Assembly: GCA_015665455.1 (NCBI GenBank)
Contig: JADFAD010000009.1
Span: 186,001-250,000, forward strand
Direction: 5' to 3'
DNA length: 64,000 nucleotides
Origin: Oceanospirillaceae bacterium
GTDB lineage: Bacteria > Pseudomonadota > Gammaproteobacteria > Pseudomonadales > Litoribrevibacteraceae
Shown here piece by piece: positions 8,659 to 18,341 of this stretch. Both the position numbers and the translations under genes were made by a program. The notes under the pieces are model-generated. The model did not search any database, was not told the DNA's origin, and saw nothing but the letters and a program-made list of their open reading frames with translations. Each line of letters starts with the position of its first letter. Positions within the stretch are counted from its first letter, which is position 1.

Positions 8659-9047
8659 TGACTGCGTTCTAATATGAAAACAAACCATACATTCTTTCTT
8701 TATATCTCCTGAAAACTACTATTCATATTAACTTGATCCTTCAAAACATATAGCAACTGCACAATATACTCGTACCCAATAGCAATACCCCTATCCAGCC
8801 TTAAAACCTACAGTGAGCTATCCAGTATCAATTCATTGAATTGATACTGCTTTGTTTATCAGTAGTTTAACAAACCGAAACGTTTTAAAAACGGATCACT
8901 CTGTTCAGAAAACATACCAAATGGTAGTATATGAAAAAATTTGACAACTAGATCTATTTCAGGATTCAGCGTTTAAAAAGCGCAGATCTCGCACCACATA
9001 AAACTATAAAGCGAGACAGAGAAAAACTAACGACGGAGAAGTACCCT
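8659..9047. promoter_or_regulatory. Non-coding region with a 27-bp palindrome upstream of the lipoprotein cluster
   Basis: No convincing gene is visible in these 389 bases. A perfect palindrome with a single central base occupies 8823-8849 (arms CAGTATCAATTCA and TGAATTGATACTG around T8836). Such a short centre suits a dimeric-regulator operator better than an RNA terminator. TTGACA at 8941-8946 could be a -35 element, but the matching -10 is poor. The leader ends with GGAGAA at about 9034-9039 before a TTG start. Confidence 0.5.
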
Positions 9048-11606
9048 TTGAACCTAGCCCGCAGTATTTTTGCCTGCCTATTCATTGCAGCGTTTTTAAG
9101 TGGTTGTAAGTTATTACTTCCAAAGTCTTTTACTGAAGCCGAATCTCATTTTTCATCACGACAATACGATAGAGCCATTACTGCGTATCAAAGAGCAGAT
9201 CAAGAAACACCAAATAACGTCCACATTAAGCAAGGTCTTATTAAAGCTTATTCTCATAAAGCAGTGGCACTGTTTGAAGAGGCAAAAGGTCGCCCTACAG
9301 AAGACGTTGACAACAAAATAAAAATGTATGGTCAGGCTCAATCAGCAAACGACAGTGCTCGACAATACATCAATGAGGTAAAGCGCATTGAGCCGCTTGA
9401 TCCAAACGTTAAAACACCTAACTCGCGTCCTCGCCAATTGCTTCTGCCCGTCAACGATGAAATGGATTACACAGCAAAAATTCGCTTGTACGAAAAAACG
9501 CTTCAAAAGCATAAAGCCTATGTAGCCCATGAGCTAATTGATGAAGAAAAGAAACAGAACGAAATAATTGATGGTCTGAAGTCTGCGGTTGCTCTTATGT
9601 CTCGTAAGCCCGATGGGCCAATTCAAGCTTACGACGCATTCAGACCCTACGACAAATACGCGGCTCATATGACAAAAGCGTCCAAGGCAAAAAACGCCAT
9701 TGAAAAAACGGCCATCAATTTTTATGAAGCCAGAGGCCTTCATTTCGTTTCAAAAAATAAGTTTTCTCAAGCAAATAAAGACTTTAAATCCGCTCAATCG
9801 ATTAATCCTAGCTCCCACCAAGCTACTGCAGGTATTCTTGCAGTCCAAACAAAAAAACAAATCACAAAGTCACAGTTTGAAGCGGCTTATGCATCTCTGA
9901 ATGAAATCAACCTTCAGCACCCTAAAAGTCGGTTTTACAATAAGCACATGGAAAATGTGCGCACTCAAGTGGTTACTCGAGGGTTAGCCAAAGCAAAGAA
10001 ACACACTAAAACCTCCTCCATAACAGATAAGGCTCTCGCCTTTGATATTTATCATCAAATGCAGCCAATCGCTCAACCAAGCCCAGGACTAACAAGTAGA
10101 GTTTCTCTTGCAATTTCAGCGCTGCAAACACAAGTCGCCAGTGACTTGACAGCTCGCGCAATGGTTCTAAACCAACGCAATGCGTTTGCGTACTCCTCAA
10201 ATATTTCTGCGCTACTATCAAACGCTTATGGTTTCTCAGACAAAGCAGCCCTGCCTTACAAACAAATGGCCTACCGAGCGAACCAGATTTCTTCAGAGAA
10301 ACTGGCCTTGCCCGTACTGTTCACCACGCAAGGCAAAAAATCCAAACAACGCACTCACTTTAGAGATTGGTTGGATGGCGAAATTTTTGACACGATTCCA
10401 AATCTCGACATTGAAAATGTGACAGCCACGGATTTATTTGATATCCCTGAAGAAGGTGCACTACTCAATAGATCTAACGTATTCACATCGACGGCAATAC
10501 CATTCGAGCAAACCGAGATTGTATTCATGCTCAATCTCAGAAAACACGATTTCAAAGAGACGGGCCGCGATCGCGCAAAACGCAAGTCATCTAAATACGT
10601 ATCCAAACGCTATAAGATCCATAACAACGAGTGGGACAGAGCGAAACAACGCTTAGAAAACGCCAAAGATGCGCATAGAGAAGCTAAAATTGCAGCTGAA
10701 GAACTTTACAATTTGTGTAAGCGTGAAGCCTCTCGAGCAGCCGCAGCATTGGGGCCGTTTGGAGATATTGCAGCAGGTGGCCTTTGTAGCTATGGCACAA
10801 ATGCATTAACCAGTGAACTGTCAGGTCTCAATGATGCGAGAGCAGAATTTAGCAAAACACCGAAACAAATCGAAAAGAAAGAAATCTCCCGGTACCGTTA
10901 TGAAGAATACACCGTTCAAGTAAGAGGCGATTTAGTTGCTGACCTGATTGCTTATGATCGTCGAAATAAAAAGACGATTAAACTGGAGCCCATCAAGCTT
11001 TCAGTTAACAAAAGCGGGAAAATATTCAAAAACGTTAAACGCGAAGACGTAAACGGCCTGAAAAACGGAGAAAAAGACGTTCCTGAGATCGACGCTGAAA
11101 TTGAAAAGAAAGAACAATCCGTTTTCAAACACACTCGAGCTCAAATTGCGATGTTCCTTGAAGACCACCGCTGGAAACGCTTTTGCTACCAAGGTGACGC
11201 GCTCACCAAAAAGAGATTACCGCACGCTGCAACGGATGCATATTCTCAATGTATAAACACTGCTCCAAGAGAAGAAAAAGGCAGCAAAGAGATCATTGCA
11301 GCCAATAAAGCCATCCAGAAATACATGGGATTCAACCCCGAAATGGTTGCCAAATACGGTTCAAATAAAGACTACCAGAGCTTCTCTAACAACGATTACA
11401 GTCTGAGCGACAGTGAACTCGAAGCCACAAGAAAAGCAAATACGTTAGCATTTATGAGCCAACCTAGCATTTCTCTAACGAATTTCAACATTGAGAAAGC
11501 CGTCGCAAATTTCAGAACAGGCAACTTCCAAAACGATTCAATGATTGCCTCGCCTGTACTGGAAAACAACACTCAAACCGTTTCATTTGATCTTGAAGCA
11601 CAGTAA
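9048..11606 (+). CDS. Large TPR-containing lipoprotein (paralogue A), unknown function
   Basis: An 852-residue exported protein. Translation likely starts at a TTG preceded by GGAGAA. The signal peptide ends in the lipobox LSGC, so the mature protein begins at about Cys20. Residues 24-80 look like TPR helices (AESHFSSRQYDRAITAYQRA), and further TPR-like pairs occur near 225-300. The middle contains the blocks RPRQLLLP and MSRKPDGPIQAYDAFRPYDK. A charged, coiled-coil-like stretch of about 535-590 follows. The C-terminal third holds YEEYTVQVRGDLVADLIAYDRR and WKRFCYQGDALTKK. Nearly every block recurs in the same order in the gene at 11749, so the two are tandem paralogues. It is first in a five-gene exported cluster and looks like a periplasmic scaffold; no enzyme motif is seen. 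Confidence 0.85.
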   Translation: MNLARSIFACLFIAAFLSGCKLLLPKSFTEAESHFSSRQYDRAITAYQRADQETPNNVHIKQGLIKAYSHKAVALFEEAKGRPTEDVDNKIKMYGQAQSANDSARQYINEVKRIEPLDPNVKTPNSRPRQLLLPVNDEMDYTAKIRLYEKTLQKHKAYVAHELIDEEKKQNEIIDGLKSAVALMSRKPDGPIQAYDAFRPYDKYAAHMTKASKAKNAIEKTAINFYEARGLHFVSKNKFSQANKDFKSAQSINPSSHQATAGILAVQTKKQITKSQFEAAYASLNEINLQHPKSRFYNKHMENVRTQVVTRGLAKAKKHTKTSSITDKALAFDIYHQMQPIAQPSPGLTSRVSLAISALQTQVASDLTARAMVLNQRNAFAYSSNISALLSNAYGFSDKAALPYKQMAYRANQISSEKLALPVLFTTQGKKSKQRTHFRDWLDGEIFDTIPNLDIENVTATDLFDIPEEGALLNRSNVFTSTAIPFEQTEIVFMLNLRKHDFKETGRDRAKRKSSKYVSKRYKIHNNEWDRAKQRLENAKDAHREAKIAAEELYNLCKREASRAAAALGPFGDIAAGGLCSYGTNALTSELSGLNDARAEFSKTPKQIEKKEISRYRYEEYTVQVRGDLVADLIAYDRRNKKTIKLEPIKLSVNKSGKIFKNVKREDVNGLKNGEKDVPEIDAEIEKKEQSVFKHTRAQIAMFLEDHRWKRFCYQGDALTKKRLPHAATDAYSQCINTAPREEKGSKEIIAANKAIQKYMGFNPEMVAKYGSNKDYQSFSNNDYSLSDSELEATRKANTLAFMSQPSISLTNFNIEKAVANFRTGNFQNDSMIASPVLENNTQTVSFDLEAQ

Positions 11607-11624
11607 TTCGAAGAAGTAACTTAG

Positions 11625-11655
11625 GCATTTTGTCAGCTTATTGCGTACAAAATGC
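11625..11655. repeat. Inverted repeat between the two paralogous lipoprotein genes
   Basis: GCATTTTGT (11625-11633) and ACAAAATGC (11647-11655) form a 9-bp stem with a 13-base loop just after the stop of the first lipoprotein gene. No T-run follows, so it is more likely an mRNA-end or processing hairpin than a complete terminator. Confidence 0.4.
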
Positions 11656-11748
11656 TTAATACAGGCAATAAACTAGCCAAATCCTATTGAAAGAAATAAA
11701 ATTCAGCCTCTTTAATTTGCTGAACAGTCAAACCACAGGAGATCGACC

Positions 11749-14526
11749 GTGCGCTTCGTCGGAAAACTTTTTTTAATCTCTGCACTTATTATGTCTTTAA
11801 GTGCTTGCAAAACGTCTTCTTCGACGAGCTCCGTCAACCAAGCCGAAAGTTTCTTCAACAGCCAACAATACGACAAGTCCATTTCAGCCTATAAGAAAGC
11901 GATAAATACATCACCAGACAACGCTAATATTAAGATGGGCTTAATTAAAGCCTTATCAACCAGCGCGGTGTCTCTTTATGAAGAAGTCGAAACAAGACCC
12001 ATTGAAGATTTAGACAGTCGAGTTCAACTTCTTGAAAAAGCCAACAGTCAGCGTGAAGAAGCGTTGTCAGTATTAACAAAAGTGGAACAACTTAAGCCAG
12101 TAAACCCGCAGATTAATGCGCCGTACGCACGCCCAACTCAGCTTTTGCTCCCTTACGACAACAGCATGGATTACAGCGCTCAAGTGAAGCTGTATAAAGA
12201 AACACTCGCGAAGCATGAACAACTCAGTTCTAAAAAGCTAAAAGAAGAAATGTCTAATCGTGACAGCATCTTTTCCGAAATAAACGCCGTTGTTGCAAAA
12301 ACGAACCAAAGCCCCGATGGCCCTATTGTTGCCTATAATGCATTCAAGCCCTACAACAAGTATGTCCAGTACGTAGATAAGGCTAAAGCAGATCAAAAAA
12401 ATCTTATTTCTAACGCGATCAATTATTATGAAGCCAAAGGGTTAAAAGCGCTTTCTAACAACCAATTTGAGATTGCATCGGCTCACTTTAAAAATGCAGA
12501 AAAAGTCAAACCAAACTCCAATCAAGCCAAAGCAGGTTTACTGGCTGTCGGTGTCAAGAAGCAAATTAATGCGAATGATCAATTAGCCGCGTACTCAGGG
12601 CTAAACACGCTCTACCAAGTTCTACCCACCAGTACATTTTACTCAAAACACATGCCTACCGTTCGCAACCAAATTGTTAATGGCTATCTGACCGAAGCCT
12701 CAAAGTTAGCTAAAACTGATTCAATTCAAGACAAAGCAAAAGCATTTGATTTGTATTTCAAAGCCAAACCAATCGCAAAGCCTTCACCTCCACTCATAGG
12801 CAAAGTTACTGACGCAATCAGTGCACTCCAAGATAGAATTGGTATCGAACTGACTGCACGCGCTGTCGTACTTAACAAACAAGATCCTTATGCCTATCCT
12901 GCGGTTGTTTCTGCTCTTCTGAGTAACGCATACAGTTTTTCAGAAAGTGCACCCATGGCATACAAGCAAACAGCCCGTAAAGCGAATGCGATCGTACCAA
13001 ACCAACAAGGGTTATCCATTCTTCTCTCAACCGATGGAAAGATAGCGCAAGAAAAAGCGTCTTTTTCAAATTGGTTAAAAGAACAATTTTCAAAGCAGTT
13101 AGAAAGCGAAAACGTTTCGCAACTAACCGTTATCGACCCACAGGATCTACAAACTCAAGTTGCAGAATTGTCTACATCCAATGTATTTTCTGAAACTCCT
13201 ATCCCATTTGAGTCCGCTGAACTTATCTTCCTATTAGATTTGACGAAGCACGACATCCAAGAAAGCGGTCGTGACCGAGCAACATATAAGCAATCCCAAT
13301 TTGTTTCGGGCCAAAAAATGGTCGACAATCCAGAATATAAAAAGGCTGAGATCGCAAAAGACGAAGCAAAAACAAACTTAATCAAGGTGGAAGCTCTAGA
13401 GAAACAGGCCTTTGATCAATGTAAAGCGCTTAATGCTCAAGGCTACGCCATTGACTGTTCTTACGGCAGTCTCGATTTAGACGCCGCTAAAAACACCGTA
13501 ACATCCACAGAACAAGCGTTTCTAAAGACTTCTAAGCAGATAGAAGAAAAAACAACTTCTGATTACAAATACGAAGAATATACAATCAGAGTTAAGGGCG
13601 AAATCAAGGCAGAGCTGTCAGCGTATGATCGCAGAAGTAAAAACACATTTAATCTAAAACCAATTACCTTAACCGTCGATAAAAATGGTCAATTAAGAAA
13701 CGGCGTTAAAGAAAACGACGTTACAGGCATTAAAAACGGAGAAGACGGGCTACCCCGCGTTGGCGAAGAAACCTATGAGCTCGAAAAACAACTTCTAGAT
13801 CATGTTGTTAATGAAGTAACTGAATTTAGAAAAGCACATGACTGGCAACGCTTCTGCCTTCAAGCTGAAGCACTCAATAAATCAGGCCGCACTCATGCAG
13901 CAGCAAACGCAAGCATTCAATGCGTAGCCAAAGCATCGAAAGACAACAATTCAGAATACATAGCAACTGCGAACGAAAGCATACAAAAATACATGGGTTT
14001 CACAAATAACCAAGTCAAGAAGTATGGAAGAAACTCAAATAGCCCTAGCTTTAATAGCACTCCTGACTCTAGCAATGGCAACGCCTCTCTTTCCGCACAA
14101 GAAAAACAAACTGCACTTAAATCGTCCACACTTTCTTTTGCAAACCAAAGTAAAAAGCCGTTTAACTTTAAACAGTTAGTACGTAATCAAATTAAGACTG
14201 AAGAATCAAAAGCTCGACGCCTAAATGCAAAGAAACCAAAACACATAAGCACACCAGCTACCGTCGTTACCACACCTGAAACGGCAACAGCCCCAGTAAC
14301 GGCCACCCCTAAGAAAAAGATCATTAAAAAAACAGAACAGGCAAAATCAGTTAGTCGTGCACCAATGAGCGTACCAAAACAAACACACCAACAACCTGCT
14401 TCAACTAAAACGGTTGTCAAACAAGTTGAGGAACCAAAAGAACAAACGCCACCAACCGTCATCAACGAAGAGGAAGGCCAAGAGTTTGGTTTCGATTTTG
14501 ATATTGTTGAGCCAGTAGATTTATAG
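11749..14526 (+). CDS. Large TPR-containing lipoprotein (paralogue B), unknown function
   Basis: A 925-residue exported protein with a GTG start and a good site (AGGAG) before it. The lipobox LSAC predicts lipidation at about Cys20. It matches paralogue A block by block: ESFFNSQQYDKSISAYKKA (TPR), RPTQLLLPYDNSMDYSAQ, SPDGPIVAYNAFKPYNKY, ESGRDRATYKQSQFVSG and YKYEEYTIRVKGEIKAEL. Unlike A it carries a C-terminal extension of roughly 125 residues. This begins basic, continues as a Thr/Pro/Lys/Ala-rich linker (PATVVTTPETATAPVTATPK) and ends in the acidic tail EFGFDFDIVEPVDL. That tail could be a docking peptide. Duplication followed by divergence is the simplest origin. No enzymatic motif is visible. 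Confidence 0.85.
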   Translation: MRFVGKLFLISALIMSLSACKTSSSTSSVNQAESFFNSQQYDKSISAYKKAINTSPDNANIKMGLIKALSTSAVSLYEEVETRPIEDLDSRVQLLEKANSQREEALSVLTKVEQLKPVNPQINAPYARPTQLLLPYDNSMDYSAQVKLYKETLAKHEQLSSKKLKEEMSNRDSIFSEINAVVAKTNQSPDGPIVAYNAFKPYNKYVQYVDKAKADQKNLISNAINYYEAKGLKALSNNQFEIASAHFKNAEKVKPNSNQAKAGLLAVGVKKQINANDQLAAYSGLNTLYQVLPTSTFYSKHMPTVRNQIVNGYLTEASKLAKTDSIQDKAKAFDLYFKAKPIAKPSPPLIGKVTDAISALQDRIGIELTARAVVLNKQDPYAYPAVVSALLSNAYSFSESAPMAYKQTARKANAIVPNQQGLSILLSTDGKIAQEKASFSNWLKEQFSKQLESENVSQLTVIDPQDLQTQVAELSTSNVFSETPIPFESAELIFLLDLTKHDIQESGRDRATYKQSQFVSGQKMVDNPEYKKAEIAKDEAKTNLIKVEALEKQAFDQCKALNAQGYAIDCSYGSLDLDAAKNTVTSTEQAFLKTSKQIEEKTTSDYKYEEYTIRVKGEIKAELSAYDRRSKNTFNLKPITLTVDKNGQLRNGVKENDVTGIKNGEDGLPRVGEETYELEKQLLDHVVNEVTEFRKAHDWQRFCLQAEALNKSGRTHAAANASIQCVAKASKDNNSEYIATANESIQKYMGFTNNQVKKYGRNSNSPSFNSTPDSSNGNASLSAQEKQTALKSSTLSFANQSKKPFNFKQLVRNQIKTEESKARRLNAKKPKHISTPATVVTTPETATAPVTATPKKKIIKKTEQAKSVSRAPMSVPKQTHQQPASTKTVVKQVEEPKEQTPPTVINEEEGQEFGFDFDIVEPVDL

Positions 14527-14670
14527 TTTATACATGCGACAGAAGTCCATAATAGATTGGGCTTCTGTTGTTAGAAAAACGTAAATATATCTAAGAATTA
14601 CCTCTTTTAGATATTAATCAAAACGGATAAAGTAATTAAATAAATCTAATTAGAACCTGTATAAAAATTT

Positions 14671-15945
14671 ATGTTTAATCGACTCTTTACGTATATATTA
14701 TTTATCTTCTTACTCATGCCTTTAGCCCATGCAGAGTCAAAGGACAGCTTAGTTCTTTTAAGCGTTCAAACAGAAGAAATAAACTTAATTTCCACTTACA
14801 CGTCGGCAATACACGAAGGCCTTAATGAAAGGTATAACGTGTATTCTGGCGACAATGTCGAGGACTTCATTGAAGAATTCCAAGACAATGAAATCGAATG
14901 CACGCCAGAGAAATGTATGGGGGCAGTTTCTCAAGAGTTTGGGGTGGAATTGATTGTTGACGCCTCTGTAAGCAAAGTACAGGACGAATATATACTTAAA
15001 ATGTCCGTACAGAGCATTTTAAGAAAAGATCCAGTAGAAGAAAAAACAGAAACATGCCGTAACTGCACAATCAGTGACAGACTAAAAATATTAAAATTAA
15101 TGGGCGCGGGTAAAACGGTTTCAGACCACTGGCAGCCAACGTTGTCTGAATCAAGCAACAGCGCAACGTTAGTTTTTGACAGTTATCCTTCGGATGCAAG
15201 TGTATACATCAATGGCCAGAATGTAGGTGTCACACCCTATCGCGGCGTTGGATATGATATAGGCCAAGATCTTGAAATTGAAATTAGAAAGTTTGGCTAT
15301 AGAGCTTTCCATAAAACCATTATGCTGAACCAGCGCATTAGAAAATTTAACACCCCTTTCGAGCTTATTAAAAAACAAGGTCAACTTGAAATAACTACAG
15401 ACCCGTATAAGTCTAATGCCACTGTATTTATTAATGACAAACTAAGAGGTTCTTCAGATAACACGCTTATATCTCCCGTTGGAGAGATCGAAATCTACGC
15501 CATAGCAGATGGCAAACAATCTGAAGTAATCACCACCTCCCTTCTCGATGGCGAAACAAAAAACATCACCTTGGTTTTCGTTGATGAAGAGGTAACTAAC
15601 GACCCTGTTTTCGTTTTTACCAAGCCTCAAGGCAGCAAACTCGTATTCAAAGGCAAGTCCAAAAAGGGATTTGAAACGGGCCAAGTTGACTTGTATCTGA
15701 AGGAAGGTAGCAATAAATTCACGCTCAAATTAGATAACGGCAGAAGTATCTACGGTGACCTTCAGCTCACATTCATAGATCAGAAAGTCAAAGAACAGAT
15801 ATTTGGCCTAAATGAAGCACTTCCAAAACCAAGACACATCCAGGCCTCCATGCGAGGAAGCCCGGTAAAATACAGAATTAAAATGAATACAGACAGCGGC
15901 GCCAAGGAAGTCATTAATTACCGCTTAAGTCTAAGACCTATATAA
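14671..15945 (+). CDS. Exported PEGA-domain protein
   Basis: A 424-residue protein with an N-terminal signal peptide (LLMPLAHAES, cleavage near residue 21). The first mature domain (about 25-145) resembles the TolB-N/CsgG-like fold found ahead of PEGA repeats, with two cysteine pairs, C77-x4-C82 and C129-x2-C132. Two PEGA-type beta-sandwich repeats follow, at about 167-234 (SYPSDASVYINGQNVGVTPY) and 237-302 (TDPYKSNATVFINDKLRGSS). PEGA domains are typical of surface or periplasmic proteins and are thought to bind glycans or proteins. The remainder, to residue 424, is beta-rich and unassigned. It lies 144 bp after paralogue B and 32 bp before the next lipoprotein gene, so it is likely co-transcribed with the latter. 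Confidence 0.8.
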   Translation: MFNRLFTYILFIFLLMPLAHAESKDSLVLLSVQTEEINLISTYTSAIHEGLNERYNVYSGDNVEDFIEEFQDNEIECTPEKCMGAVSQEFGVELIVDASVSKVQDEYILKMSVQSILRKDPVEEKTETCRNCTISDRLKILKLMGAGKTVSDHWQPTLSESSNSATLVFDSYPSDASVYINGQNVGVTPYRGVGYDIGQDLEIEIRKFGYRAFHKTIMLNQRIRKFNTPFELIKKQGQLEITTDPYKSNATVFINDKLRGSSDNTLISPVGEIEIYAIADGKQSEVITTSLLDGETKNITLVFVDEEVTNDPVFVFTKPQGSKLVFKGKSKKGFETGQVDLYLKEGSNKFTLKLDNGRSIYGDLQLTFIDQKVKEQIFGLNEALPKPRHIQASMRGSPVKYRIKMNTDSGAKEVINYRLSLRPI

Positions 15946-15977
15946 AAACTTATTACGCCTAAAGTTGGAGAAAATAA

Positions 15978-16973
15978 ATGAGCCTAACTAAATTCAAGAC
16001 AGGCCTTGTAGTCACAGCCTCTTCCATCGCATTAACAGGGTGCTTAAGCAGCGGCGGTTTTAACGCCAACGTTAAGCCAACGGATACGCCATACGGATTC
16101 GTAGCAAAAGAATCTACATTACGTATGTCCATAGGCGACCTATACCCGAACCCGAAGCTACGTGAAAAGCAACTGGATAACGGGACTGAAACATTTTCAG
16201 CATTCATACGCACACCAACAGAGCACGTTGTTTGTTTTAACAACAACCCCCAAGGAATTCCTGTACCTGCCAAGAACGAAAAAGGTGAAGAAGTTCCTCT
16301 TCACTTTGTAAATGGCATGTACCCTTTCGAGATTTACAACCTTAAAAAAGACGCTAAAGGAAAGCCTAAAAACGACTGTTCAGATCTTAAGAAACCTTTG
16401 TACATTGGTGCCATGGCGTTCTTCGGCTACGACCAGGACATGGAGTTCGCCACATTTGGTGCAGATGAAGATACCTCTCTCATCAAAAAAGAGATCGTAG
16501 ATAAAGTATCTAAAGGCGTTCTAGGCAGTCACACCATTAGCTACGACAATAAAGAACGTATCAAGTATTGGGTTGGGAACCGTTCTGACCTATACAGCGG
16601 TGGCCCAGCAACCGTTGAAGTTGATTTCCGAAAAGCAAACCTTCGAGACCTAAAAATCAACAAAGAAGAAGTAAAAGGTATGCAAACTGAACTGGAAATT
16701 TATGAAGTTTACCAAGATCAGTACGGCCGCCCAGCTAAGAAAAAGAAGCAACATCGCCTTGAGTTCACAACAAAAGACGGTAAAAAATTCGCTGGTTACC
16801 TAAAAGACCTACAGGACAATGAATACACGGCCTTCATGAAGATCCCTGCGGACATCCCTGCAGAATTATATGAAGCGGCAGGTAAAGGAACTGTTTCTAA
16901 GTTTGACGTCATGTCGAAAACTCAACATGGCAGTGCTCGCATTGCTCAAATCGTATTTGGTCTTAAGCGCTAA
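15978..16973 (+). CDS. Lipoprotein of unknown function
   Basis: A 331-residue protein. Its start has a good site (TTGGAG) upstream. The signal ends in ALTGC, giving a lipidated Cys at about residue 22. The mature part is rich in beta-forming and Lys residues, with no family I recognise; notable are RTPTEHVVCFNNNPQGIPVP and SDLYSGGPATVEVDFRKANL. Two further cysteines (in VVCFNN and NDCSD) could pair. It is the fourth gene of the exported cluster, 32 bp after the PEGA gene. A 13-bp hairpin follows it. Its role probably belongs with the two large lipoproteins, but this is inferred from position only. Confidence 0.75.
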   Translation: MSLTKFKTGLVVTASSIALTGCLSSGGFNANVKPTDTPYGFVAKESTLRMSIGDLYPNPKLREKQLDNGTETFSAFIRTPTEHVVCFNNNPQGIPVPAKNEKGEEVPLHFVNGMYPFEIYNLKKDAKGKPKNDCSDLKKPLYIGAMAFFGYDQDMEFATFGADEDTSLIKKEIVDKVSKGVLGSHTISYDNKERIKYWVGNRSDLYSGGPATVEVDFRKANLRDLKINKEEVKGMQTELEIYEVYQDQYGRPAKKKKQHRLEFTTKDGKKFAGYLKDLQDNEYTAFMKIPADIPAELYEAAGKGTVSKFDVMSKTQHGSARIAQIVFGLKR

Positions 16974-16989
16974 TCCATCAAAGCGACAT

Positions 16990-17019
16990 TTAATTAGCTG
17001 GTTTTCACCAGCTAATTAA
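16990..17019. terminator. Strong intergenic hairpin, possible partial terminator
   Basis: A 13-bp perfect stem, TTAATTAGCTGGT (16990-17002) and ACCAGCTAATTAA (17007-17019), closes a TTTC tetraloop between the fourth and fifth genes of the exported cluster. The following bases (TCTCTTTA) are only weakly T-rich. It may attenuate or protect the mRNA rather than fully terminate it. Confidence 0.6.
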
Positions 17020-17060
17020 TCTCTTTATGCCCAAAATCCACGAAGAATGAGTATTTCATT

Positions 17061-18296
17061 ATGCGTTCAAAGCACATTTTGTTCTGCACTGTTGCAGGCT
17101 TAACGTCTGCGACAGTTCATGCATCCGAGGACTTCTTCCCTCCGCTTAAAGCGTTTACCGATGCACCTTATGAAGTCATAAATTTAGGTTCACAACCTAA
17201 ATACGACACATCGAATGGTTTGTTCCCGAGATTGGCCCCAAGCGAAGTCATTGCGTTCTACATTGACTATCAGTCGAATGTACAAGCCATCACATGTGAT
17301 GCAATTTCTCAAAACGTAAGAACCCCCGAAATAACGCGTGAGATTCAAGGCACAATCACCAACACAGGTAAAGAATCATTTGTTGGCTCTGTAGCAATAA
17401 ACTCAACGCACATAGATTCTGGTGCTCACTCAGCGGTAAGCCAACTGGCGACAGAAAGCTACAGTCAAGAAGCTGGTACGAGCTCTTCAACTAGCTCTGT
17501 TTCTATGGATAACCAGCAAGTAAAAGACGATACATCAAGTCAGCAATCACAAGTTGATATCGCTGAAACAGAATCTTTGACTGGTGGTCTTAACGACACA
17601 TCGCTGCAAACCACTGTGTCAGAAACAGTTAATGTATCAGGCTTTAGAAGCTCTCAACAGAAAGCATCAACCCATGATGTTTTTTCTATTTCAAAAACAC
17701 TGTTGGGATATTTCGAAGACTTCTTCCAAAACGCCATTGATGAAAGCGACAACGCCATCATGGTTGATGAAGAAGGAAACGCAGTTGATCAAATTCTTGA
17801 TGGTGACGAACTCGCCCTGGTTGATGAAGCAAAAGGTGTTTGGTTAGAGCGTGCAAGCCGTTTCAGCTATGAAGACTCGTTATTAACCTATTTGACTGAC
17901 TTTCCAACCGATGAATTCAGGAAAGACATCACGCTGCCAGAAAACCCTGAGAACAGTTCAGACATATCTTGCAGCTACAAAGTGCCTAACGATTTAGATG
18001 GAATACAATACGGTCATCACGCAGGAATTCGTTTTGAATTGAAGAATACAGGAAACATTCCTCTTACTGATCTATTGATCGCGATGTCGCCATCAGACAA
18101 CACGACATACCTTGCAGCACAGGAGCGAAAAGCTGATATTACAAGCTATATCCCCTCTTCTGAAGTAGTACTGCACCGTCGATTTATGCCTATTCCAGCA
18201 GGAAACACCTACAGAACTCAATTGTTCGTTATGGCTGATAAATGGGAATTACCAAAACCTCCCGAAGAAGAAAAAGGCTTCTTTGACTTTTTCTGA
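17061..18296 (+). CDS. Secreted protein with Ser/Thr/Gln-rich segment, unknown function
   Basis: A 411-residue exported protein with a signal peptide (about residues 1-21, cleavage after VHASE-like AxA). The first 110 residues look like a beta domain containing EITREIQGTITNTGKESFVG. Residues about 115-205 are Ser/Thr/Gln-rich and low in complexity, like an extracellular linker. An acidic helical segment (about 215-275) follows. The C-terminal half contains HHAGIRFELKNTGNIPLTDL, reminiscent of Ig-like or CARDB/DUF11 beta sandwiches. Two cysteines (ITCDA and DISCSYK) could form a disulfide. The protein ends in an aromatic tail, GFFDFF. It is the last gene of the cluster and is followed by a strong terminator. 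No function can be assigned. Confidence 0.75.
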   Translation: MRSKHILFCTVAGLTSATVHASEDFFPPLKAFTDAPYEVINLGSQPKYDTSNGLFPRLAPSEVIAFYIDYQSNVQAITCDAISQNVRTPEITREIQGTITNTGKESFVGSVAINSTHIDSGAHSAVSQLATESYSQEAGTSSSTSSVSMDNQQVKDDTSSQQSQVDIAETESLTGGLNDTSLQTTVSETVNVSGFRSSQQKASTHDVFSISKTLLGYFEDFFQNAIDESDNAIMVDEEGNAVDQILDGDELALVDEAKGVWLERASRFSYEDSLLTYLTDFPTDEFRKDITLPENPENSSDISCSYKVPNDLDGIQYGHHAGIRFELKNTGNIPLTDLLIAMSPSDNTTYLAAQERKADITSYIPSSEVVLHRRFMPIPAGNTYRTQLFVMADKWELPKPPEEEKGFFDFF

Positions 18297-18312: not shown

Positions 18313-18341
18313 AAAAACCTAACACCTTGTTAGGTTTTTTT
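18313..18341 (+). terminator. Rho-independent terminator closing the exported-protein cluster
   Basis: AAAAACCTAACA, loop CCT, TGTTAGGTTTTTTT: a perfect stem of 9 or more bp followed by seven T residues, 16 bp after the stop of the fifth gene. Confidence 0.9.

Follow-up and report, generated by a model that had tools for sequence, protein, structure and literature searches.

Do five consecutive genes that encode only exported proteins form one system, or do they merely share a neighbourhood? The question is raised by a 64,000-nucleotide stretch of DNA from an Oceanospirillaceae bacterium (assembly GCA_015665455.1, contig JADFAD010000009.1; the whole stretch is called the window here), in which five same-strand genes at positions 9048 to 18296 encode two large tetratricopeptide repeat (TPR) lipoproteins, a protein with a PEGA domain and two orphans. 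An earlier reading made from the sequence alone (the sequence-only reading) had proposed that the five form one system. That proposal is not supported as it stood, as gene 1 occurs without genes 2–5, beside an unrelated lipoprotein, in the sole other genome of the family listed by our searches (G001). We tentatively favour, with close to even confidence, a lineage-specific, fast-changing cell-envelope locus in which gene 1 would be a conserved scaffold with exchangeable partners.

Results

Five exported proteins are encoded side by side

The cluster comprises the following genes:

9048 to 11606, plus strand: gene 1, an 852-residue TPR lipoprotein with a TTG start, the conserved anchor of the locus
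11749 to 14526, plus strand: gene 2, a 925-residue paralogue of gene 1 with a GTG start and an extra Pro/Thr/Lys-rich C-terminal tail
14671 to 15945, plus strand: gene 3, a 424-residue exported protein of TolB-N/PelC/CsgG fold (predicted) with a PEGA domain
15978 to 16973, plus strand: gene 4, a 331-residue orphan lipoprotein (LTGC)
17061 to 18296, plus strand: gene 5, a 411-residue orphan exported protein with a Ser/Thr-rich middle

The genes are separated by 142, 144, 32 and 87 nucleotides. Judged by eye, all five products begin with a Sec signal peptide-like N-terminus; lipoboxes are present in genes 1 (LSGC), 2 (LSAC) and 4 (LTGC), and none was found in genes 3 and 5. The open reading frames (ORFs), N-termini and lipoboxes therefore confirm the described layout of five same-strand genes with signal peptides throughout and three lipoboxes, and the signals support its view of an exclusively exported set on the envelope side. 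In E. coli, a lysine instead of an aspartate after the lipid-bearing cysteine sends a lipoprotein to the outer membrane. As the corresponding residue is lysine in genes 1 and 2 and leucine in gene 4, the outer membrane is the expected location of all three lipoproteins under this rule, and we infer it for gene 1 in particular. Codon use of genes 1–5 resembles that of other window genes (excess of 0.030–0.060 against a median of 0.050 in the 34 others of more than 200 residues), which gives no indication of recent import. A defence or phage origin was rejected: at E ≤ 0.1 the five proteins found no match in PADLOC or PHROGs, and no relative of gene 1 is encoded in the 22 pattern-matched viral stretches.

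Gene 1 is conserved in a second genus, where its neighbours differ

G001 carries a single match of the gene-1/2 type, an orthologue of gene 1 with 61.9% identity. It occupies the same syntenic place and is then followed by the same downstream genes as in the window: a START-like protein (68.8% identity), an alpha/beta hydrolase (59.8%) and a VTT protein (84.7%), with an amidoligase, S1 and cytidylate kinase further downstream in the same order (by eye in G001; by Pfam for the window copies). The START-like protein and the hydrolase are thus the pair that stands next to the gene 1 locus in both genomes, outside the borders drawn by the sequence-only reading. The place of genes 2–5 is taken in G001 by an unrelated, coiled-coil-looking lipoprotein of 515 residues (by eye), for which neither Pfam (E ≤ 0.05) nor the window's own genome (E ≤ 1) gave a match. 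Genes 3, 4 and 5 were not detected in G001, either by tblastn at E ≤ 0.001 or, in all six frames of the locus, by phmmer at E ≤ 10. The gene-3 profile matched G001 over TonB_C columns only (columns 312–395, E 5.2e-4), and no PEGA match was obtained there at E ≤ 0.01.

Joint recurrence of the five genes was not observed: G001 has gene 1 only, and the other genomes searched yielded no convincing gene 1 or 2, 4 or 5. Independent occurrence of the genes in relatives, named beforehand as what would speak against a common system, is thus seen in part, namely for gene 1 in G001. Gene 2 is 40.4% identical to gene 1 (837 aligned positions) and 38.2% identical to the G001 orthologue. Since it is about equally far from both, while those two share 61.9%, these identities suggest that the duplication probably predates the genus split and that G001 has lost its copy, unless faster evolution of gene 2 accounts for them. 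For genes 3–5, gain and loss are indistinguishable from two genomes.

Wider searches used genome samples of the class and order (369, 390, 371 and 322 genomes), which are overlapping draws from larger groups. A gene-1/2 profile matched five of the 369 class genomes, namely the window's own and four with weak TPR matches (20–27 bits), and five of 390 order genomes, namely the own genome, G001 (1158.9 bits) and three weak ones (19–23 bits). Of the four class-genome matches, the ORFs of three were read (G336, G400 and G120; the fourth is G364); by eye, these three are ordinary TPR-containing proteins and were not counted as relatives. The same profile matched none of 97 pattern-matched contig stretches.

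Comparison with G001 supports the TTG start of gene 1, as a GTG start aligns with it there behind a similar leader and ribosome-binding site. The two leaders (window 8980–9048; L025 9540–9620 in G001) share a CTCGC...GCGAG element before the ribosome-binding site, but their folding energy is not unusual against shuffles (z −0.80 and −0.77).

Genes 1 and 2 encode paralogous TPR lipoproteins

Pfam support for TPRs is limited to residues ~28–72 in both proteins. TPR_19 reaches 28.5 bits in gene 1 (cut-off 25), whereas gene 2 stays under every TPR cut-off (best 25.9 against 26.8) and yet is 40% identical to gene 1. Beyond TPR, no sequence family over cut-off was found in either. A profile of the three gene-1/2-type relatives retrieved TPR proteins from the PDB, designed ones at the top, with 13 sequences at E ≤ 1. 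Paralogy, lipoboxes and the TPR_19 match of gene 1 thus bear out the description of two giant paralogous TPR lipoproteins. Besides the lipid-bearing cysteine, Cys 557, 580, 713 and 735 are identical across gene 1, gene 2 and the G001 orthologue.

An AlphaFold model of gene 1, built from three sequences, places helices up to residue ~410, then a beta-rich part with a long helical insert (~527–603) and further helices, at low confidence. In comparisons with the VIA tool this model reaches Z values of up to 11.2, within the range that the tool itself notes as common for helical models, and no single well-covered fold match stands out among the matches listed, which excludes none. The same limit applies to the likeness of the N-terminal TPR helices to TatT (Z 8.9, root mean square deviation (rmsd) 4.8, 119 residues) and to a BamA-BamD fusion (Z 8.2, rmsd 2.1, 86 residues), both common values for helical models. 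Genes 1 and 2 differ from TatT and BamD in their length of 852–925 residues, in a long beta/helical-hairpin part and in the four extra conserved cysteines. A gene-3-type fold in the middle region of gene 1 is suggested by strand order in the poor model only; profile comparison supported neither this fold nor a link to a FlgT-like protein of another genome (G505).

Gene 3 combines a rare four-cysteine domain with PEGA

Two domains are distinguished in gene 3:

14734 to 15114, plus strand: N-terminal domain, residues 22–148, with four cysteines invariant in four members
15163 to 15333, plus strand: PEGA domain, residues 165–221

PEGA scores 37.2 bits against a Pfam cut-off of 20.8, and TcaA_3rd_4th barely exceeds its own (29.8 against 27 bits). 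No Pfam family of the TolB-N/CsgG/PelC group matched gene 3 at E ≤ 1, or residues 1–160 alone at E ≤ 0.5. In the structural model, 10-residue means of the predicted local distance difference test (pLDDT) are 69–92 over residues 21–150, against a whole-protein mean of 58.5, and the chain beyond ~residue 220 is poorly modelled. The N-terminal domain is predicted to fold as beta-alpha-beta-alpha-alpha-beta-beta-beta-alpha, in line with the TolB-N/PelC/CsgG fold group. Foldseek returned 1275 matches at E ≤ 10, of which 37 reach E ≤ 0.001; TolB leads the list (E 7e-7 to 1e-4), which also includes FlgT, LpoB, PelC, GNA1162 and CsgG. By VIA, the best agreement was with PelC (Z 10.6, rmsd 2.7, 106 residues aligned), next to TolB (Z 10.5, rmsd 2.8, 108 aligned). 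The model supports a TolB-N/PelC/CsgG/LpoB/FlgT fold for residues 22–148, without membership of these sequence families. Of the former label of a CsgG/TolB-N-PEGA-like protein, PEGA and the predicted fold remain, whereas a CsgG or TolB-N sequence family, with no Pfam match, does not.

This domain appears to be rare. At E ≤ 0.001, a two-sequence gene-3 profile found matches in 91 of the 322 order genomes; among the matches listed, the N-terminal domain was covered only in the own genome (two genes) and in G505 (two places), and the remaining ones sit on PEGA or TonB_C columns. The single locus from a pattern-based contig scan (247 stretches) is consistent with that G505 contig (Pseudomonadales bacterium isolate DT_90). 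In 56 relatives, tblastn with gene 3 gave two matches outside the own genome (G040, G041); both start at residue 167, in the PEGA part, and were discarded. All four domain members share Cys 77, 82, 129 and 132 (gene 3 numbering), and the combination of the four-cysteine TolB-N-fold domain with PEGA was found only in gene 3 and in the second copy of its own genome. In the open-licence literature, we found no paper joining the PEGA domain with CsgG, and those that bring together PEGA domain, lipoprotein and tetratricopeptide all concern Treponema.

The second gene-3-type protein of the own genome (contig C4, L014:8433-9623) has a TolB-N-fold-type domain, PEGA and TonB_C, and is adjoined on the same strand by a DsbA-like lipoprotein (L014 9774-10418). 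The G505 locus (L063:1900-6948) holds an LPP20-like run (below cut-off), two gene-3 N-terminal domains, and thioredoxin-like and DsbA-like proteins; one copy of the domain is fused to an FGE-sulfatase-type domain beside the latter two. This envelope locus may merit separate study. Two conserved cysteine pairs and the adjoining DsbA-like genes in the own genome and G505 suggest disulphides in the domain family; gene 3 itself has no DsbA-like gene adjoining.

Hairpins lie inside the cluster as well as at its borders

Four structured elements were mapped:

8823 to 8849, no strand assigned: 27-bp near-perfect palindrome with 13-nucleotide arms, terminator-like, its core present once in the genome
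14536 to 14571, plus strand: strong hairpin in the gap between genes 2 and 3 (whole gap z −6.4)
16990 to 17019, plus strand: strong hairpin in the gap between genes 4 and 5 (whole gap z −5.1)
18313 to 18339, plus strand: terminator-like hairpin after gene 5

The palindrome and the downstream hairpin had been proposed as borders of the cluster. Both are real, their stretches folding at z −4.4 (0 of 200 shuffles as good) and z −2.9 (2 of 200), but they are not specific to the borders, since the 2/3 and 4/5 gaps are more structured (0 of 200 shuffles each). The gap between genes 1 and 2 is mildly structured (z −2.6, 4 of 200). Because strong hairpins lie inside the cluster, a single transcript over the five genes is doubtful. 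A scan for terminator-like hairpins found 19 sites against 11.7 in shuffles, so that single sites mean little, and a promoter-like site before gene 3 (14498–14527) carries no weight, as that scan gave 6 sites against 20.8 in shuffles. The palindrome was rejected as a recurring operator, its core occurring at one genomic site only with up to 2 mismatches; no counterpart was seen upstream of the G001 orthologue of gene 1.

Genes 4 and 5 are orphans

Neither gene has a Pfam match at E ≤ 1 or a PDB match at E ≤ 10, and in NCBIfam gene 4 has a single match, below threshold, while gene 5 has none. Plasmid searches returned no match for them at E ≤ 0.01, and none for gene 2. Among 56 relatives, and again among 371 order genomes, gene 4 was detected in a single one, its own. 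Gene 5 was found in 1 of 56 relatives and, at E ≤ 0.01, in 5 of 322 order genomes including its own, the four others being weak (E 6.7e-5 to 0.009; G685, G650, G642, G532). The matches in G685 and G650 (residues 345–410) were taken as chance, as they fall in frames that we recognise as polyphosphate kinase, and the one in G642 (32% identity, residues 40–136) lies in what appears by eye to be an exported repeat-type protein and is not convincing. Both genes thus remain without a convincing relative in Pfam, NCBIfam, the PDB and the order genomes; the sequence-only reading had left both unassigned.

Three products of the cluster end in similar tails

The C-termini concerned are encoded as follows:

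11577 to 11603, plus strand: gene 1 tail, acidic-aromatic/aliphatic
14482 to 14523, plus strand: gene 2 tail, FDFDI..PVDL
18273 to 18293, plus strand: gene 5 tail, FFDFF

The 20 C-terminal residues of the 515-residue lipoprotein in G001 show a likeness to the C-termini of genes 2, 5 and 1. Compared with 299 ORF tails (window and loci of at least 5 kb), genes 2 and 5 score highest (30 each), and gene 1 scores 25, tied with one other. Among 387 ORFs taken by a simple picker from 508,254 own-genome bases, genes 2, 5 and 1 take ranks 2, 3 and 5, with genes 2 and 5 at 30 (tied with one) and gene 1 at 25 (tied with three); genes 3 and 4 rank 255 and 358. Of the 387, 8 carry F[DE][FLI] in their last 15 residues, genes 1, 2 and 5 among them, and three other motif forms occur in 4 or 5 of the 387, including two or three of these genes. 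All four forms were chosen post hoc, after the likeness had been noticed by eye. Against a signal speak the 71 of 5000 shuffles that reach the score of gene 2, an unrelated protein at rank 1 of the 387 (score 36), and the shortness of the gene 1 and gene 5 matches, which span only a few residues. It is possible that genes 1, 2 and 5 and the G001 protein share an acidic-aromatic tail as a real signal, which might possibly be a docking peptide.

Elsewhere on contig C4 of the own genome (L085:7702-11134), three adjoining genes of 336–346 residues begin with what a crude expression scores as lipobox-like; those of 336 and 341 residues end nearly alike (FSKRQ) and are possibly tandem paralogues.

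Discussion

The reading that we tentatively favour starts from computed observations: export signals (by eye), paralogy of genes 1 and 2, the predicted fold of the gene-3 domain and a gene 1 neighbourhood that differs between two genera. From these we infer a common complex, a scaffold role and ring formation. As the conserved part of the locus, gene 1 would likely be the core scaffold, an arm in the periplasm held at the outer membrane by its lipid; its TPR-like helices, and the beta/coiled-coil part that comes after them, may bind periplasmic partner proteins. Gene 2 would be an old duplicate serving other partners in the same way. Gene 3, with PEGA after its TolB-N/PelC-type domain, would probably form or join a periplasmic ring or collar. 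In plan, though not as a Pel member, this would recall the TPR arm of PelB in its PelC ring (PMC12141448), and genes 4 and 5 would be fast-evolving client or surface proteins. Partners may be exchanged between genera, with genes 2–5 here and the coiled-coil-looking lipoprotein in G001.

Several results weigh against this picture. The model of gene 1 is weak (mean pLDDT 58.3, predicted template modelling score 0.33), none of its 173 Foldseek matches (E ≤ 10) reaches E ≤ 0.001, and profile comparison of its middle region with the gene-3 domain gave no link (E 0.11, probability 0.5%). Gene 3 lacks a lipobox, unlike PelC or CsgG; a common transcript is doubtful; and genes 2, 3, 4 and 5 are undetected in G001, which has gene 1. 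The last two points would follow readily if the genes were mere neighbours in a hotspot of unrelated, fast-evolving exported proteins, with genes 1–2, 3–4 and 5 in separate transcripts and roles. This explanation is quite possible, though it falls short of probable: besides the unconserved set and the strong hairpins in the 2/3 and 4/5 gaps, it is favoured by the spacing of the genes and by the gene-3 domain occurring without the others in its second copy and in G505, whereas the succession of five exported proteins points to some link, as does the post hoc likeness of three C-terminal tails.

Alternatively, the cluster could encode an apparatus for export or surface assembly, of PelBC, curli or FlgOPT type, with a gene-3 ring and genes 4–5 as cargo or surface parts. 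CsgG builds a ring, and the PDB titles among the Foldseek matches of gene 3 include the PelC dodecamer and the ring entry LPHT; the predicted likeness of its domain to PelC, CsgG, FlgT and TolB would suit such a role. One report describes the TPR arm of PelB as docking inside a ring of twelve PelC lipoproteins (PMC12141448), so that a TPR scaffold encoded together with a PelC-fold protein would have a parallel there. In the present case, however, the TPR part is a lipoprotein, the Pel enzymes are absent among the five genes and gene 3, the candidate ring protein, has no lipobox. As no barrel is recognised by Pfam or NCBIfam and gene 1 of G001 stands without a detected gene 3, the likeness to PelBC is a comparison of plan, by analogy, and not Pel membership. 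Within the TolB-N/CsgG/PelC/LpoB/FlgT group, gene 3 agrees in being exported and in its predicted fold over residues 22–148, and differs by the absence of a family match and lipobox, by four conserved cysteines and by the PEGA and beta-rich sequence that follow. From other PEGA-domain proteins it is set apart by the joined four-cysteine domain. It differs from curli CsgG in having neither a lipobox nor a PF03783 match, and a stronger CsgG family match lies apart from the cluster in the own genome (G000:C5:133855-134481, 265 bits; G001 also has one, 84 bits). An LPP20 partner, as in the FlgO/FlgP/FlgT outer ring, was not found among the five genes at E ≤ 1, nor was a synthase recognised by Pfam or NCBIfam. 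With no match to the gene-3 N-terminal domain in G001 either, we consider an export apparatus unlikely.

A more specific proposal builds on the tails. In it, the gene 1 lipoprotein would act as a docking hub in the periplasm, and exported partners, unrelated and exchangeable, would be recruited to it by a short acidic-aromatic C-terminal peptide of FDF/FDL type. The clients of such a hub would differ by genus, being genes 2 and 5 here and the 515-residue lipoprotein in G001. We regard this proposal as very unlikely.

The locus adds a TPR lipoprotein that has so far been seen in a single family, a pair of orphan exported proteins and a variant of the (predicted) TolB-N/PelC fold that has four cysteines and is joined to PEGA. 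Without tail docking, it would be an ordinary case of fast turnover among envelope proteins; tail docking, if true, would provide a simple rule by which periplasmic scaffolds swap partners between genera.

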